A stretch of 50,758 nt of DNA from Candidatus Nealsonbacteria bacterium (lineage in GTDB: Bacteria; Patescibacteriota; Minisyncoccia; Minisyncoccales; JAGGXC01): the NCBI GenBank assembly GCA_026396195.1, contig JAPLXH010000003.1, positions 1-50,758 of the forward strand. The letters are read 5' to 3'. The notes under the pieces are model-generated. The model was not told the DNA's origin, searched no databases, and saw nothing but the letters and a program-made list of their open reading frames with translations. The translations under genes and the position numbers were made by a program. Positions 5,871 to 44,403 of the stretch are shown piece after piece (position 1 is the first letter of the stretch; the number at the start of each line of letters is the position of its first letter).

Positions 5871-5944
5871 GGGGACGTAGATCAATTGGTTAGATCGCAT
5901 CCCTGTCACGGATGAGGTTGCGAGTTCGAGTCTCGTCGTCCCCG
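5871..5944 (+). tRNA. tRNA-Asp (GUC)
   Basis: 74 nt cloverleaf: acceptor GGGGACG/CGTCCCC, anticodon arm CATCC-CTGTCAC-GGATG giving GTC, T-arm with TTCGAGT loop, discriminator G as required by AspRS. Only 12 nt separate it from tRNA-Met, so the two are probably co-transcribed. Its 3' end and terminator are the parent sequence of the R elements found downstream. Confidence 0.95.
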
Positions 5945-5955
5945 CAAAGAAAATT

Positions 5956-5980
5956 ACCCGAGATTTACCTCGGGTTTTGT
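5956..5980 (+). terminator. Terminator of the tRNA cluster (parent of the R-type terminators)
   Basis: Stem ACCCGAG/CTCGGGT with loop ATTTAC followed by TTTGTG. The same hairpin with one or two changed loop bases recurs at 6816, 7898, 9219 and 9913. Confidence 0.85.
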
Positions 5981-5993
5981 GTCAGTCTCTCTA

Positions 5994-6023
5994 TTGACAA
6001 AACTGTAATAAAAATGGTATAAT
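5994..6023 (+). promoter_or_regulatory. Sigma-70-type promoter of locus A
   Basis: TTGACA (5994-5999), 18 nt spacer, TATAAT (6018-6023). The predicted +1 falls on the first base of the 5' hairpin at 6030. Confidence 0.8.
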
Positions 6024-6029
6024 AAAGAT

Positions 6030-6102
6030 GGAAAGGAAAGAAAAAAGAAGATTCTTTACTTTCCAAATTGCACCTTGAGATCTTAATATAAGATTAGAGG
6101 TG
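6030..6102 (+). promoter_or_regulatory. Structured 5' leader of locus A
   Basis: A +1 stem-loop pairs 6030-6042 with 6052-6064 (GGAAAG and AAAGAA arms, one mismatch). After AAATTG comes a second hairpin, CACCT (6071-6075) with AGGTG (6098-6102) and an inner ATCTTA/TAAGAT stem. The locus at 43879 has the same order, and TTGCACCTTGA is identical there. Confidence 0.75.
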
Positions 6103-6124
6103 ATAGAAAAAGAGGTGAAAAGAA

Positions 6125-6424
6125 ATGACAGCAAAAGAAGATATTAATAAGGCAGAAGTCGGGGAAATATCTTACCTGATCGTTAAAGAGATGGTAAAGA
6201 AAGAAATGCGTATCTCTTCGTTCAGTGATCCTGAAATCAAAAAGAGAATCGGCGATGCTCTTGGAAAACTAAAAATGCCAAAAGAGAAACTTCTTGCTTA
6301 TTGTAAGTTTCTCGGAAACGATGTTTTTCAAGAAGCTAACGCTAGCCTACAGGCAACGGAATTCTCTGAAAAATATTTAGCAGATGAAAATGCTCGTCGG
6401 GCAAGAAGTAGTCTACCGCAGTAA
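6125..6424 (+). CDS. Small helical protein of locus A, paralogue of the 43978 product
   Basis: 99 residues, charged, helical, no membrane segment or cysteine cluster. The start is set by GAGGTG 7 nt upstream. The part ISYLIVKEMVKKEM...KKRIGDALGKLKMPKEKLL resembles INLIAKQAFKAHLR...IKRNIGNSL...KEEALEF of the protein at 43978-44202, weakly but in the same order. The shared leader and trailer RNA supports common descent. No known family is recognised. The gene lies just behind tRNA-Asp and has its own promoter. Confidence 0.75.
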   Translation: MTAKEDINKAEVGEISYLIVKEMVKKEMRISSFSDPEIKKRIGDALGKLKMPKEKLLAYCKFLGNDVFQEANASLQATEFSEKYLADENARRARSSLPQ

Positions 6425-6702
6425 AAAAAGATAGAAGGAAAGCAGGGTTGAACCCGCAAGGTTCGTCAAAGGGTAATTGATCTTTCTTAAAGATTAGACA
6501 GAAAGACAGAACAAGAACCCCTCCCTCTTACCTTCTAATATTTTTTCATCTCTTTGTACCATTTATATCGTGATCTTGTTGAGCCTCGGCTCAAAACAGA
6601 TCCGATTCCTAAAGGAGAGTAAGGATAAAAATCTTTCTATATGATGTGGACCATTCAAAAAGTTCACTCTCTGTAAAAAGATTCATTCCTCTCTCCTTTT
6701 TC
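6425..6702 (+). ncRNA. Conserved structured 3' UTR of locus A
   Basis: AAAGGGTAATTG (6468-6479) is followed by the hairpin ATCTTT-CTT-AAAGAT, then ACAGAACAAGAACC and CTTACC (6527-6532), where GGTAA can pair with TTACC. The end is a long hairpin closed by GGAGAG (6614-6619) and CTCTCC (6691-6696) with inner AAATCTTT/AAAGATT, then TTTTTCC. Locus B (44203-44403) has the same motifs in the same order with different stem bases. This fills a 450-base gap without any ORF. Confidence 0.65.
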
Positions 6703-6777
6703 CATTTTTTAACTAAAACAGACCCTGATGCTTTCCATCCATTTTTCCTGATTTCTTATTAAATCCACCCACTTAAA

Positions 6778-6840
6778 GGTTCTAAACGTGTCCCGTAGTC
6801 CCCGCTACGATTTTTACCCGAGATTTAGCTCGGGTTTTGT
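6778..6840 (+). repeat. R element 1 (tRNA-Asp 3'-end-like sequence plus terminator)
   Basis: It reads GGTTCTAAACGTGTCCCGTA, then GTCCCCGC, then the terminator ACCCGAG-ATTTAG-CTCGGGT (6816-6835). GTCCCCGC plus terminator match the 3' end of tRNA-Asp and what follows. A -10 TATAAT lies directly behind (6843-6848). Confidence 0.7.
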
Positions 6841-6876
6841 GGTATAATATTTATAAATAATAAATAATATTTTTTT

Positions 6877-7110
6877 ATGTCTATTATAATAGTTAAAATT
6901 CTAAGTTTCTTTGTGCCACTTTTTCTAATTATTTTCGGAGCACTTACGCTTTCATATAAGCCCTTTTTAGAATGGTCTATAAGACTTGAAAATCAATTAA
7001 GGGGAACCAAAACTGAAATAAATTCCACAACAATAATTTATAAAAAATTAATGGCAATTTTTGCTATTATTTTTGGTATAATAGCATTTTATTTATTAAA
7101 CAAGTTCTAA
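6877..7110 (+). CDS. Small two-TM protein, unknown
   Basis: 77 residues with two hydrophobic helices (about residues 4-26 and 57-75) and a basic/polar loop RLENQLRGTKTEINSTT between them. Not recognised. It has no ribosome binding site and is transcribed from a TATAAT at 6843 directly behind the R1 terminator. It forms a one-gene unit between R1 and R2. Confidence 0.65.
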   Translation: MSIIIVKILSFFVPLFLIIFGALTLSYKPFLEWSIRLENQLRGTKTEINSTTIIYKKLMAIFAIIFGIIAFYLLNKF

Positions 7111-7140
7111 CATAATTCGTTAAGAGTCAAATTCATCATA

Positions 7141-7230
7141 AAAAACCTATTATTTCCTCTAACCCTGGTTCTAACGTCGTCTACGAGTCCCCGCAAAGTA
7201 AAACCGCTTCCTAACATAGCGGTTTTTAAA
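7141..7230 (+). repeat. R element 2
   Basis: CCTCTAACCCTGGTTCTAAC followed by GTCGTCTACGAGTCCCCGCA and AAG. The terminator is different here: AACCGC (7202-7207)/GCGGTT (7219-7224) then TTT. Apart from that it closely matches R4. Confidence 0.75.
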
Positions 7231-7245
7231 TTAATGTAAGTTTAT

Positions 7246-7274
7246 TTGACAAAATAATATTTTTATTTTAGAAT
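7246..7274 (+). promoter_or_regulatory. Promoter of the 7306 gene
   Basis: TTGACA (7246-7251), 17 nt, TAGAAT (7269-7274), starting 22 nt behind the R2 terminator stem. Confidence 0.75.
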
Positions 7275-7305
7275 ATAAAAGATAAAATAAGAAGGAGGCG
7301 ATGAA

Positions 7306-7611
7306 TTGCTGAAAAAGAAGAAATGGATAGCTACATATGTTCTTTTAATCATAAATAAAGAAAGATACGAAAGTTATCGCGAGATGCTTGAAAAAACGCC
7401 AATGATGCATATACATAAAGACGGAAAAATGATCCCCGTTTTTAAGGCTCTAGATCCAAAGATAGAAAATGGAGATAGAAAAGAATTTTCTGTATTTGCT
7501 AGAACAAGATTTGGAGCAAAAAGAGAGGCTATAATAAAAGGATTATATGCTAATTTAGTTTTTAATGGAAATATAATTTATAAGCTTGAATCAATAGTTC
7601 TATCAAAATAA
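7306..7611 (+). CDS. Hypothetical protein, TTG start
   Basis: 101 residues, basic, no TM or known motif. The start is TTG at 7306, placed 7 nt behind a strong GGAGG (7294-7298). The ATG at 7301 is out of frame and meets TGA after three codons. Not recognised. A one-gene unit with its own promoter and a terminator at 7616-7648 (AACCAGA/TCTGGTT plus T-run). Confidence 0.7.
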   Translation: MLKKKKWIATYVLLIINKERYESYREMLEKTPMMHIHKDGKMIPVFKALDPKIENGDRKEFSVFARTRFGAKREAIIKGLYANLVFNGNIIYKLESIVLSK

Positions 7612-7615
7612 ATTT

Positions 7616-7648
7616 AACCAGAGATATGTTTCTTCTGGTTGTTTTTTT
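7616..7648 (+). terminator. Terminator after the 7306 gene
   Basis: AACCAGA (7616-7622) pairs with TCTGGTT (7634-7640), then GTTTTTTT. Confidence 0.8.
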
Positions 7649-7675
7649 GCCAATTATACGAGAGGTAAATCTAAA

Positions 7676-7920
7676 ACAAAAACCTCATTGTTCCCCCTAA
7701 TCCTGGTTCTAACGTTGTCTACGAGCCCCCGCCTTTGCTTCGCCGAAGCCTTGGCGAAGGAGAGCCGTCGCCTTTAGGCTATGGCTACGCTAGGCGAGCT
7801 TCGTCTCAGCTACGGCGAGGCAAGCCCGCCATCCTTCGCTACTCCGTAGCTATATGGAATAGCGTAGGATAGCTATGGAATGGCAAGCCAAAGTTTTACC
7901 CGAGATTTAGCTCGGGTTTT
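7676..7920 (+). repeat. R element 3 with REP-like insertion
   Basis: CCCCCTAATCCTGGTTCTAA, then CGTTGTCTACGAGCCCCCGC (to 7732), followed by about 160 bases of palindromic repeat (for example CTTCGCC..GGCGAAG, and CCATCCTTCGCT..GGAATGGCAAGCC), and finally the standard terminator ACCCGAG/CTCGGGT at 7898-7917. No ORF is plausible in this 360-base gap. A similar CCATCCTACGCT..GGAATGGCAAGCC block lies at 37930-37963. Confidence 0.7.
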
Positions 7921-7969
7921 GTGGTAGAATAAAAGAAAGCCGTTAATATAAATTTTAATAATATTTATT

Positions 7970-8626
7970 ATGGAAGAAAAAAAAGAAGAAGATAAAAAAG
8001 TTTCAAAGAAAAATAAATTAATAATAATTTTATTTATTTTTGCACTTTTGTTTACGGCATTTACAATATTTACAATATCATCGTTAGGTACCGCAAGAAA
8101 ACCCGCTATCTATTTATATCCAACAGAAGATTCTTTTGTAAATGTTAAATTGAAAATTAAAGGATTAATAACTAAAGACATCCCTAAATATAATAATGGG
8201 TGGAATGTTTTTGTGACGAAAGATGGCTTAATTAATCAAAAATACGATTATTTATTTTACGAGACTAAACTACTAAAGGTGGATTTACCGAAATCTGGTT
8301 GGGTGGTTAAATATAAAGATTTAAATCAATGGTTTGATATTAATCTAATGAAATTAGGACTAAACGAAAAAGAAAAAAAACAATTTATAGAATATTGGAT
8401 TGAAAGTTTGCCTGAGGCAAATTACTATGAGATAAAATTGCTTGAAGAAAATTTCTTGAATGAAAATATGGCCTTGGGCATATCTCCTAAGCCCGATACA
8501 GTAATAAGATTAATGTTTAATTTTAGACCACTTAATAAAAAGATTGATATTACAGAGCCAGACATTAATACCCCCAAAAGAGAAGGGTTCACCGTTGTTG
8601 AATGGGGAGGCATATTAGATAATTAA
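7970..8626 (+). CDS. Membrane-anchored protein with a KPAIYLYP-type domain, unknown function
   Basis: 218 residues: a lysine-rich cytoplasmic N-terminus, one TM helix at about residues 18-36, then an extracytoplasmic domain beginning KPAIYLYPTEDSFVNVKLKI and containing YDYLFYE and the C-terminal VVEWGG. Proteins with a 'PAIYLYP' start and 'YLFxE' motif are widespread but uncharacterised as far as I know. It is the first gene of a two-gene unit between R3 and R4; -10 TAGAAT lies just behind the R3 terminator. Confidence 0.7.
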   Translation: MEEKKEEDKKVSKKNKLIIILFIFALLFTAFTIFTISSLGTARKPAIYLYPTEDSFVNVKLKIKGLITKDIPKYNNGWNVFVTKDGLINQKYDYLFYETKLLKVDLPKSGWVVKYKDLNQWFDINLMKLGLNEKEKKQFIEYWIESLPEANYYEIKLLEENFLNENMALGISPKPDTVIRLMFNFRPLNKKIDITEPDINTPKREGFTVVEWGGILDN

Positions 8627-8667
8627 TAAATTTATAAAAAAACAATAATTAATTTTTTTAATTAAAT

Positions 8668-9135
8668 ATGCTTAATAAGAAAATATCCAAATATACAATT
8701 ATTTTAATTATTTCAATAGTTCTTATTATTTTTAATCTCTTTTTTTGGTTTATGGTTTTAACGGGTGAAGTAGGAGGCGGTGGGCGACCTACAGACGCTC
8801 GTAGACAATCAGATATCAGACAGATTGGTTTAGCTATGGAAATGTATTACGAGGCAAATAATAGTAAATACCTTCAATCAGCGATTATACCTAGTGGCAT
8901 TGGGACTTTTTTAAATCCAATTCCTAGAGATCCGACAACAGGCAATGAGTATTCATGGGTAAATAACAATGTGCCTTGTGATGTTCTAGAAGTGAGTCAA
9001 TGGTATTGTGCTTACGGAATTTTAGAGCACACAACTACTCAAGTAGGTAGCGTGTTGGCAAATCAAAAGGGGGTAAAAACTTTGAATTGGGCTTCTACTA
9101 CAATTTTGAGTAATATTAACTGCTGTCTTTGGTAA
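8668..9135 (+). CDS. Type IV pilin/pseudopilin-like protein without a classical prepilin peptidase site
   Basis: 155 residues. An N-terminal TM helix (residues 8-31) is followed by DARRQSDIRQIGLAMEMYYE and a YP-like segment, the usual start of the pilin head in bacterial pseudopilins. Two Cys pairs near the C-terminus could form disulfides. The usual GFTLIE cleavage motif is absent; the helix is preceded by LNKKISKY instead. It may be a pilin-like protein held by its TM. It sits 41 nt behind the 7970 gene. Confidence 0.6.
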   Translation: MLNKKISKYTIILIISIVLIIFNLFFWFMVLTGEVGGGGRPTDARRQSDIRQIGLAMEMYYEANNSKYLQSAIIPSGIGTFLNPIPRDPTTGNEYSWVNNNVPCDVLEVSQWYCAYGILEHTTTQVGSVLANQKGVKTLNWASTTILSNINCCLW

Positions 9136-9152
9136 GATAACCCAAATCCGCC

Positions 9153-9244
9153 ATAAAAACTCCATTATTCCCCCTAACCCTAGTTCTAACGTCGTCTACG
9201 AGTCCCCGCAAAGTTTTTACCCGAGATTTAACTCGGGTTTTGTG
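9153..9244 (+). repeat. R element 4
   Basis: CCCCCTAACCCTAGTTCTAA, then CGTCGTCTACGAGTCCCCGC, AAAG, and the terminator ACCCGAG/CTCGGGT (9219-9238). This is the least altered copy; the following TTGACA starts one base behind it. Confidence 0.78.
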
Positions 9245-9272
9245 TTGACAAAATATTTATTTTATGTAAAAT
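9245..9272 (+). promoter_or_regulatory. Promoter of the 9291 regulator
   Basis: TTGACA (9245-9250), 16 nt, TAAAAT (9267-9272), immediately behind R4. Confidence 0.7.
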
Positions 9273-9290
9273 ATAAAAGAGGTTTTAGAA

Positions 9291-9725
9291 ATGAATAAAA
9301 AAGAAAACATCTTAAGAAAGAGTGGTTTTTATGAAGTTATTTTAAGTTTAGGAAAACAGAAAACCTTTACTGAGATTATGGATGAAACGGGTTTAACTAC
9401 AGCAACTATTTCTAGAAGACTAAAAGAGATGAAAAATCATGGTTTTATAAGAAAAAATCTTGATCCAGTAGACGAAAAAGTAAAATATTTTCTTACGACT
9501 AAAGGAACAAAAAATATAGGATTAATAGATGTTATAGTAATTTTAGAAAAAGCATTGGAAGAAAAAGGCGAAACAAAAGAAATAAACGAAAGAATAGAAA
9601 AAATTTGTTCTGAATGCCACAAAAAAATATTCTGCGTTGTAGAAAATATTAATACAGGTAATTCATCTCTTGAATGTATAAGTTGCAAAAAGCAATATCC
9701 ATTAACCGTTAGCGGTCTAGGCTAA
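9291..9725 (+). CDS. Winged-helix transcription regulator with C-terminal zinc ribbon
   Basis: 144 residues. The N-terminal winged helix (about 5-75) reads MDETGLTTATISRRLKEMKN for the recognition helices and KYFLTTKG for the wing. A linker helix is followed by a zinc ribbon, CSECHKK...LECISCKK (near 104-135). The fold resembles ArsR/MarR-like and archaeal-type regulators. Target unknown; a one-gene unit with its own promoter and terminator (9749-9775). Confidence 0.75.
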   Translation: MNKKENILRKSGFYEVILSLGKQKTFTEIMDETGLTTATISRRLKEMKNHGFIRKNLDPVDEKVKYFLTTKGTKNIGLIDVIVILEKALEEKGETKEINERIEKICSECHKKIFCVVENINTGNSSLECISCKKQYPLTVSGLG

Positions 9726-9748
9726 AAAATAATTTCAATCTAATCTAT

Positions 9749-9775
9749 GCTGAAGAAAAACTTCAGCCTTTTTTT
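9749..9775 (+). terminator. Terminator after the 9291 gene
   Basis: Perfect GCTGAAG/CTTCAGC stem with loop AAAAA and a run of seven T. Confidence 0.88.
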
Positions 9776-9797
9776 ATTTAAATCCCGCTAAATTTAT

Positions 9798-9936
9798 CAT
9801 AAAACCCCCTCATTCCCCACATAATCCTGGTTCTAATCCTTCGACATGCTCAGGACAGGTCCTTCGGGAATACTCAGGACTACGCTACGTCTACGAGTCC
9901 CCGCAAAGTTTTACCCGAGATTTAACTCGGGTTTTG
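9798..9936 (+). repeat. R element 5, interrupted by a second repeat
   Basis: CCTGGTTCTAA is separated from CGTCTACGAGTCCCCGCAAA by about 50 bases containing CCTTCGACATGCTCAGGACA and CCTTCGGGAATACTCAGG. The terminator ACCCGAG/CTCGGGT follows at 9913-9932. R4 shows the uninterrupted form, so this is a repeat nested in a repeat. Confidence 0.75.
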
Positions 9937-9945
9937 TATTATCTG

Positions 9946-43428: not shown

Positions 43429-43457
43429 TTGACAAATTAAATATAGTATGATATAAT
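43429..43457 (+). promoter_or_regulatory. Promoter of RNA locus C
   Basis: TTGACA (43429-43434), 17 nt, TATAAT (43452-43457): full consensus. Confidence 0.88.
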
Positions 43458-43462
43458 GTAGG

Positions 43463-43792
43463 CGAGGTGAAATGAGAGATGGAAGGAACCATGATTAGGG
43501 TCTATGAAGACCCAGAATCAGTAGCAACATGGGATTAAAAGAATTTTGTTAGTAGGGGTTCAATATAATGGACCACCAGACGGATAAGGCAGTATGCCGC
43601 AATGGAGTACTACCGTAATCTAAACAAGATTCTTGTGCGAATCCTCTGTTCATTTTAAAAATTTATTGCCATTTTTGGCTTATGGGAAGCTAGGAGTTCA
43701 ATAGTATCTCTTTATACCAATTCTTGTGGAGTAAAATCCACTAAATTAAAGAGGACCTATAAAGAGATATCTCCTTGCTTCCCATCCTTTTT
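43463..43792 (+). ncRNA. Structured transcript of locus C
   Basis: About 330 nt behind a consensus promoter. Helix 1: AAGAATTTTGTTAG (43538-43552) with CTAAACAAGATTCTT (43620-43634), enclosing GGCA-GTA-TGCC. Helix 2: ATGGGAAGC (43682-43690) with GCTTCCCAT (43777-43785), ATCTCTTTATA (43706-43716) with TATAAAGAGAT (43758-43768), and an inner GTGGA/TCCAC hairpin, ending CCTTTTT. It matches no tmRNA, RNase P, SRP or 6S features I know. It may carry the mini-ORF at 43479. Confidence 0.6.
43479..43538 (+). CDS. Possible 19-residue leader peptide
   Basis: ATG 9 nt behind GAGGTG, product MEGTMIRVYEDPESVATWD. It may be a regulatory peptide of locus C or chance; only the good ribosome site supports it. 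Confidence 0.35.
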   Translation: MEGTMIRVYEDPESVATWD

Positions 43793-43795
43793 CAT

Positions 43796-43820
43796 ACAGT
43801 TCAAAAAACTGCTTTTTTTT
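43796..43820 (+). terminator. Second terminator behind locus C
   Basis: CAGTT-CAAAA-AACTG followed by CTTTTTTTT. Confidence 0.85.
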
Positions 43821-43843
43821 GTTTTTTACGAAGAATATTTTTA

Positions 43844-43872
43844 TTGACAAAATATTTTTAATATGCTATAAT
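43844..43872 (+). promoter_or_regulatory. Promoter of locus B
   Basis: TTGACA (43844-43849), 17 nt, TATAAT (43867-43872); +1 falls at 43879, the first base of the hairpin. Confidence 0.88.
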
Positions 43873-43878
43873 TTATAT

Positions 43879-43948
43879 GGAATTAAGAAGAAATATTCTT
43901 CTTAACTTCCGAACATTGCACCTTGAAAAAATTAAAGATGTCAGGTGC
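43879..43948 (+). promoter_or_regulatory. Structured 5' leader of locus B
   Basis: +1 stem-loop: 43879-43892 with 43896-43910, 14 pairs, one bulged C, loop ATA. Then GAACATTGCACCTTGA and the second hairpin GCACCT (43918-43923) with AGGTGC (43943-43948). It has the same order as the leader at 6030-6102 with different stem sequence. Confidence 0.75.
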
Positions 43949-43977
43949 GAAGAAAAAAAGAAAAAGGAGGTGAAAAT

Positions 43978-44202
43978 ATCGAAGAAGCAAGAATTAATCT
44001 GATAGCTAAACAAGCCTTTAAAGCTCATCTTAGGCACGAGTTCTCTCTTAGAGATATTCAAAAAATAAAAAGAAATATTGGAAATTCTCTAAAAGAACCG
44101 GAAATGCAAAAAATCAACGTCACCAAAGAAGAAGCTTTAGAATTTGTAAGTATAGTTATCAGAGAAGTTTTCGAAGACCTTATGGTCACCCTAGAGAAGT
44201 GA
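43978..44202 (+). CDS. Small helical protein of locus B; apparent ATC start
   Basis: GGAGGTG (43966-43972) is followed after 5 nt by ATC at 43978, in frame with the protein IEEARINLIAKQAFKAHLRH... to TGA 44202 (74 residues). No ATG/GTG/TTG lies at a usable distance. The only other in-frame start, GTG 43945, sits in the leader hairpin without a ribosome site. It resembles the 6125 protein in order and spacing of RINLIAK, KRNIGNSL and KEEALEF. Function unknown. Confidence 0.6.
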   Translation: MEEARINLIAKQAFKAHLRHEFSLRDIQKIKRNIGNSLKEPEMQKINVTKEEALEFVSIVIREVFEDLMVTLEK

Positions 44203-44403
44203 GTTTGAGGTAATTTTCCGTAAAAAGGGTAATTGTTTTCTCTCTATTTATAGAGCGATTAACAGAACAAGAACCTTTACTCTAACTTCTCTTACCTTTT
44301 CTTTTTTATCAGACTTATGGAGAGATTATAAATCTACTTTTATAAGGATCTAAGCAATTGCTTAGAAAACCTAAAAAGAGAGATTTATTTCTCTCCTTTT
44401 TCC
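44203..44403 (+). ncRNA. Conserved structured 3' UTR of locus B
   Basis: AAAGGGTAATTG (44224-44235), hairpin CTCTA-TTTA-TAGAG, then AACAGAACAAGAACC (44261-44274) and CTTACC (44291-44296). The terminal hairpin GGAGAGA-T-TATAAATCT pairs with AGATTTA..TTCTCTCC (44319-44396), with a palindromic CTAAGCAATTGCTTAG inside, then TTTTTTCC. It is the counterpart of 6468-6702. Confidence 0.65.

Follow-up and report, generated by a model that had tools for sequence, protein, structure and literature searches.

We identified a structured RNA domain in the 3' UTR of a small protein gene, which represents a new RNA family found in an unusual place, although conserved structured RNAs of this general kind are already known. 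The domain occurs twice in the window, the 50,758-nt stretch of Candidatus Nealsonbacteria bacterium DNA analysed here, at locus A (6030-6702) and locus B (43879-44403). As part of the explanation that we consider best, each locus is taken as a one-gene transcription unit encoding a small three-helix protein. We tentatively propose that the 3' UTR element, together with a hairpin at +1, determines how stable or productive its own mRNA is, and that it probably does so by binding the encoded protein. Without transcript, half-life or binding data, our confidence in this proposal stays a little short of even.

Direct reading of both loci, which lie on the forward strand, revealed the same order of elements: a sigma70 promoter, the +1 hairpin, a strong ribosome site, a small ORF, AAAGGGTAATTG, a short hairpin, ACAGAACAAGAACC and a terminator-like stem. 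Exact copies of TTGCACCTTGA were found at 6068 and 43916, of AAAGGGTAATTG at 6468 and 44224, and of ACAGAACAAGAACC at 6506 and 44262, in locus A and locus B, respectively. The matching order and shared strings described in the first-pass annotation were therefore borne out, with the reservation that one such string, CTTACC, is present in A and B and is not general in the family. Throughout the 792-kb genome, exact matches to ACAGAACAAGAACC and the paired pattern GGGTAATTG..AGAACAAGAACC are each confined to these two loci. The sole additional copy of TTGCACCTTGA was rejected as a chance match within an unrelated coding gene. The two transcripts as a whole fold far better than shuffled sequences, with z of -5.7 for A and -7.2 for B.

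Both promoters match the consensus at 12 of 12 positions. Locus A has TTGACA (5994-5999) and TATAAT (6018-6023) separated by an 18-nt spacer (5994-6023 overall), and locus B has TTGACA (43844-43849) and TATAAT (43867-43872) separated by 17 nt (43844-43872). A hairpin begins 7-8 nt past the -10 box in both, in agreement with the claim that it starts exactly at the predicted +1. The fold is strong in B (43879-43910; z -4.6, none of 200 shuffles as stable), and in A (6030-6064) it appears in the leader fold but is weaker on its own (z -1.6; 6.5% of shuffles equal). The second leader hairpin, CACCU...AGGTG in A (6071-6102) and GCACCTTGA...CAGGTGC in B (43918-43948, from sequence and leader fold), is followed by ribosome sites that are predicted to be more open than in shuffled leaders, AAGAGGTG at 6110-6117 (unpaired 0.87 vs 0.56) and AAGGAGGTG at 43964-43972 (0.74 vs 0.41). 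The encoded proteins are 99 aa long in A (6125-6424; three helices, no known family) and 74 aa in B (43978-44202; profile match over 43978-44196). No suitably placed ATG is present in locus B; the in-frame codon after AAGGAGGTG is ATC (43978-43980), which is either an unusual start codon or the result of a sequencing error. The RNA domain was located by the covariance model at 6442-6531 (60.8 bits, E 3e-14) and 44198-44287 (56.5 bits, E 5e-13). The terminal GGAGAG...CTCTCC hairpin reported earlier is present at both loci (6614-6701 and 44319-44401) and, being followed by a T-run, was identified from sequence and fold as the terminator stem.

The 3' UTR core GGGTAATTG...AGAACAAGAACC lies within a three-way junction of about 90 nt, mostly just 5' of the terminator. 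The domain starts at the stop codon in B, where P1 overlaps it, and within a few tens of bases after the stop elsewhere. It consists of P1 (AGGG/CCCY type), hairpin P2 (GGAGCC/GGCUCC type), a linker CUAAAA and P3 (N-GG/CC-N'), beyond which an internal loop with GUAAU opposite GAACAAGAA leads to an apical stem. About 24 positions are invariant, mainly in the internal loop and the junction. Thermodynamic folding of several members, including the single sequence of locus A, recovers the same junction. An earlier candidate, GGGTAA/TTACC as a conserved pairing, was dropped; among the relatives, the base preceding GG covaries with the one that follows CC, and this N-GG/CC-N' pair replaces it.

In the model-fitted alignment of 37 sequences, standard pairs account for 91.8% of the pair cells. 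Two-sided changes were found in 156 cells against 44 expected, at 16 of the 18 pairs. The covariation score was 0.618 compared with 0.209 after shuffling, none of 500 shuffles reaching the observed score, and sliding the partners by 1-3 columns lowered it to 0.08-0.14. As this alignment had been fitted to the model, a MAFFT alignment predating any model was scored too, yielding 0.467 against 0.201 for shuffles (0/500). All five helices show two-sided compensatory changes in the fitted and unfitted alignments alike, which supports the selection on RNA structure suggested at first pass. Pairwise identity is 59% for the RNA domain, 97% for its unpaired core and 25% for the protein, the core value being inflated because the loci were gathered by that core. 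Judged from these alignments, the RNA element is more strictly conserved than the protein. Such strict conservation of unpaired bases says that something specific would read this RNA, the identity of the reader not having been shown. Rfam 15 gave no family at the gathering threshold, with only tRNAs matched in the window, and no relevant match to the RNA domain at lax thresholds. The RNA is also undescribed in the open-licence papers searched, and no conserved structured RNA described for Patescibacteria was found in a large open-access literature library. The earlier statement that no described family with this layout was known thus agrees with the Rfam result.

Scanning 84,980 species genomes for GGGTAATTG-N(12-42)-AGAACAAGAACC yielded 29 contigs, compared with about 4 expected by chance from a rough base-count estimate. 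Almost all carry the label Patescibacteria, Parcubacteria or that of a related candidate group, and the others are unclassified bacteria and one Nanoarchaeota bin, whose contig is probably misbinned Patescibacteria (L019). The covariance model matched 5 of 60 relatives, 7 of 380 phylum genomes and 13 of 267 class genomes, one match being doubtful in each of the latter two sets. Hence the search of CPR genomes proposed in the first-pass annotation did recover further copies across Patescibacteria, and of the two outcomes named there as refuting, a lack of further copies and uncompensated stems, neither occurred when both were examined. Occurrence is patchy, at 2-8% of genomes, even among complete ones. 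The viral collection contained no match to the GGGTAATTG/AGAACAAGAACC pattern. Two weak covariance matches without a protein gene, L055 (G381) and L074 (G611), were taken as false positives.

The RNA is tightly linked to the protein gene. Among the 267 class genomes, the RNA was found in 13 and protein hits in 17, and 12 genomes have both, where chance alone predicts about one (13 x 17 / 267). In all 12 the RNA lies directly downstream of the protein gene on the same strand. The protein without a recognisable RNA behind it was found in G146 (two copies), G488 and G521 within the class and in G215 from the wider phylum sample; the hits in G616 and G456 were not confirmed as this protein family. 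Conversely, no genome searched had a convincing RNA without the protein gene. At L035 and L038 the RNA follows a protein gene missing its 5' part, which may reflect decay or misassembly. It is the RNA that depends on the gene, not vice versa. This favours a cis role, and we infer that the most likely mode of action of the RNA is in cis, on its own gene. The two criteria for a conserved structured RNA, compensatory change and constant genomic association, are both met. No neighbouring gene family is common to more than four of 38 compared loci. Locus B and one G146 copy, from a different taxonomic order, both face recR, suggesting an old position at that site and vertical descent.

The proteins of A and B are homologous (29% identity over 66 aa, E 7e-5), and an alignment of 25 members spans about 69 positions. 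Conservation is highest at a near-invariant arginine (24/25), accompanied by the motifs GEIA and R-x-x-G-N-x-A-K-x-I-G, and most members have a basic N-terminal half. These features would be compatible with nucleic-acid binding, a reading that rests on residue composition alone. AlphaFold (AF2) predicted three helices, with a mean pLDDT of 87 for a typical member and 77 for locus A. No significant or credible match was found in Pfam, NCBIfam or PHROG, where single members gave only scattered weak matches, and PADLOC had no match for the protein. Against PDB folds the best Foldseek E-value was 0.98; against PDB sequences low E-values were obtained for designed toroid repeats, yet no single stretch passes. 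The protein could not be tied to a known RNA-binding family by sequence or fold. The phage, plasmid and viral collections contained no relatives of the unit, the viral-contig protein search having used a single member as query. Two domain copies per protein, or tandem genes before one RNA, were found in L031, L042, G538 and G572; in L072, too, one RNA domain is preceded by duplicated protein domains or by tandem protein genes.

The -35 box is exactly TTGACA in most relatives, and about 22 of the 29 leaders long enough to test carry a hairpin starting 5-8 nt past the -10 box, the sequences of these hairpins being unrelated. The second leader hairpin differs between lineages: the CACCT/AGGTG hairpin pointed out at first pass is indeed common to A and B (TTGCACCTTGA..AGGTG) but not family-wide, many other members having the CCACGAGGGTTTCGTGG type and several none. 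A pseudoknot of CCY with the RGG loop of this hairpin in many relatives was rejected, cognate pairing being at the permuted level (P 0.19). The stem of the RGG-loop hairpin looks compensated; its boundaries were picked by eye, which makes the permutation result circular. At L025:3844-4775, a near-identical upstream region of about 190 nt, ribosome site included, precedes two adjacent genes, one for this small protein and the other for an unrelated 123-aa protein, suggesting that leaders are exchanged as modules.

How might such a unit work? In our proposal, the RNA domain would be a cis-acting 3' UTR element that governs how long its own mRNA lasts or how much it yields. The role of the +1 hairpin would be to prevent 5'-end-dependent decay, and that of the compact 3' domain to regulate attack coming from the 3' side; the most likely trigger would be binding of the domain by the encoded protein, i.e. 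autogenous control. Ribosomes that terminate should also affect folding of the domain, given that it starts at the stop codon or a short way beyond. By analogy with known systems, a 5' hairpin and a compact 3' domain would fit control of mRNA lifetime, with the encoded protein as the most economical partner; the effect on mRNA stability and the role of the protein as binding partner are both inferred. Autogenous control through a 3' UTR site is unusual in bacteria, which counts against this explanation. Furthermore, since the terminator already guards the 3' end, stabilisation alone fails to explain the near-invariant core. The core might instead belong to a stable small RNA that is processed from the mRNA and partnered by the protein, so that one transcript gives a complete RNA-protein particle. 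The better conservation of the RNA (subject to the inflation of the core value) and the tight co-occurrence of RNA and protein speak for it; the protein, however, occurs without the RNA whereas the RNA is always tied to the gene, and neither a processing site nor RNA-seq supports it. We regard this as possible but on balance unlikely. In its fullest form, a Patescibacteria-wide particle made from one transcript of about 0.5 kb, in which the new RNA fold is the more constrained part and has a regulatory role beyond its own gene, it seems no less doubtful. A type III toxin-antitoxin system was rejected, as the RNA is downstream and unrepeated rather than a set of tandem repeats upstream of a toxin gene, and PADLOC gave no match.

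A ligand-binding aptamer or self-cleaving ribozyme controlling the gene was also considered, given that a three-way junction with some 24 invariant positions, most of them in the internal loop and junction, is reminiscent of how aptamers and small ribozymes are built. Aptamers are usually placed in 5' leaders, and the criterion of a 5'-leader position for a riboswitch is unmet, because the conserved domain sits after the stop codon. With no Rfam match even at lax thresholds and no alternative pairing seen to switch the terminator, we consider this improbable. The possibility of a mobile or selfish cassette spreading among Patescibacteria draws on the patchy occurrence of the unit, the two copies here and the position of locus A between repeated terminators and adjoining tRNA-Asp. 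Those repeats also flank unrelated genes, as terminators, the phage, plasmid and viral collections searched gave no match, and neither common flanks nor mobility genes were found. Moreover, among 37 RNA matches checked, repeats longer than 20 nt flank the unit only at window locus A, L018 (a tRNA arm) and L025, and the shared recR facing suggests vertical descent. Such a cassette is thus very improbable. We give the least credence to a bistable leader switch, in which CACCUU has two alternative pairing partners, a decoy AGGUG and the Shine-Dalgarno sequence. Locus A does have CACCU and two copies of AGGTG, L069 is similar (GCACCTTGA...AGGAGGTG), and the ribosome site of L032 lies within a long perfect hairpin. 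As a general mechanism over 31 leaders it is unsupported: ribosome sites show no significant excess of pairing over shuffled leaders (combined P 0.053), there is no increase in complementarity (P 0.62), and the A and B sites are predicted to be more open than in shuffles.

Control of mRNA stability by a protein acting on the 3' UTR of its own mRNA, as proposed here, resembles that by E. coli AcnB, which stabilises its own mRNA by binding to the 3' UTR (PMC4150767). AcnB differs in being a moonlighting enzyme whose 3' UTR is not a phylum-wide conserved junction, and binding has been shown for AcnB and not here. The ompA 5' UTR stabilises its mRNA, according to works cited in PMC7509114, and the leaders here similarly start with a stem-loop and have a strong ribosome site after it; the sequences are unrelated, and an effect at these loci is inferred from position only. 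The S. aureus icaR 3' UTR is likewise a regulatory bacterial 3' UTR, but it works by pairing to the ribosome site (PMC3868564), whereas no family-wide 5'-3' pairing has been established here. Like the cis-regulatory RNAs in Rfam, such as riboswitches and ribosomal-protein leaders, this RNA is compact, conserved and tied to one gene family. Those RNAs sit in the 5' leader, in contrast to the present one in the 3' UTR before the terminator. It shares with enterobacterial 3' UTR-derived small RNAs a structured RNA right before an intrinsic terminator, but lacks a seed region or evidence of processing and is linked to a single protein family. The RNA is phylum-wide, statistically well supported and unusually positioned after the gene, and it marks an unannotated small protein family. 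As a compact test case, it can serve to study post-transcriptional control in the minimal genomes of the vast, mostly uncultured Patescibacteria, and the consensus and covariance alignment make it searchable in transcriptomes at once.

Two features of the surrounding DNA were also observed. Between rplU and locus B lies a separate strongly folded transcript-like region (43467-43830, z -7.2), with a promoter at 43430-43458, a possible 19-aa reading frame and a T-rich end; it had no match in Rfam and no DNA match in 99 related genomes. Elsewhere, five near-identical terminators TTACCCGAGATTTANCTCGGGTTTTGTG at 5954, 6814, 7896, 9217 and 9911 (region 5927-9938) stand between unrelated single genes. 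Four of the five are preceded by GTCCCCGC, as found at the 3' end of tRNA-Asp (5871-5945). The series resembles a cassette array behind a tRNA, with locus A as its first unit, and a sixth copy of the TTACCCGAGATTTANCTCGGGTTTTGTG terminator is present at G000:C10:3610.
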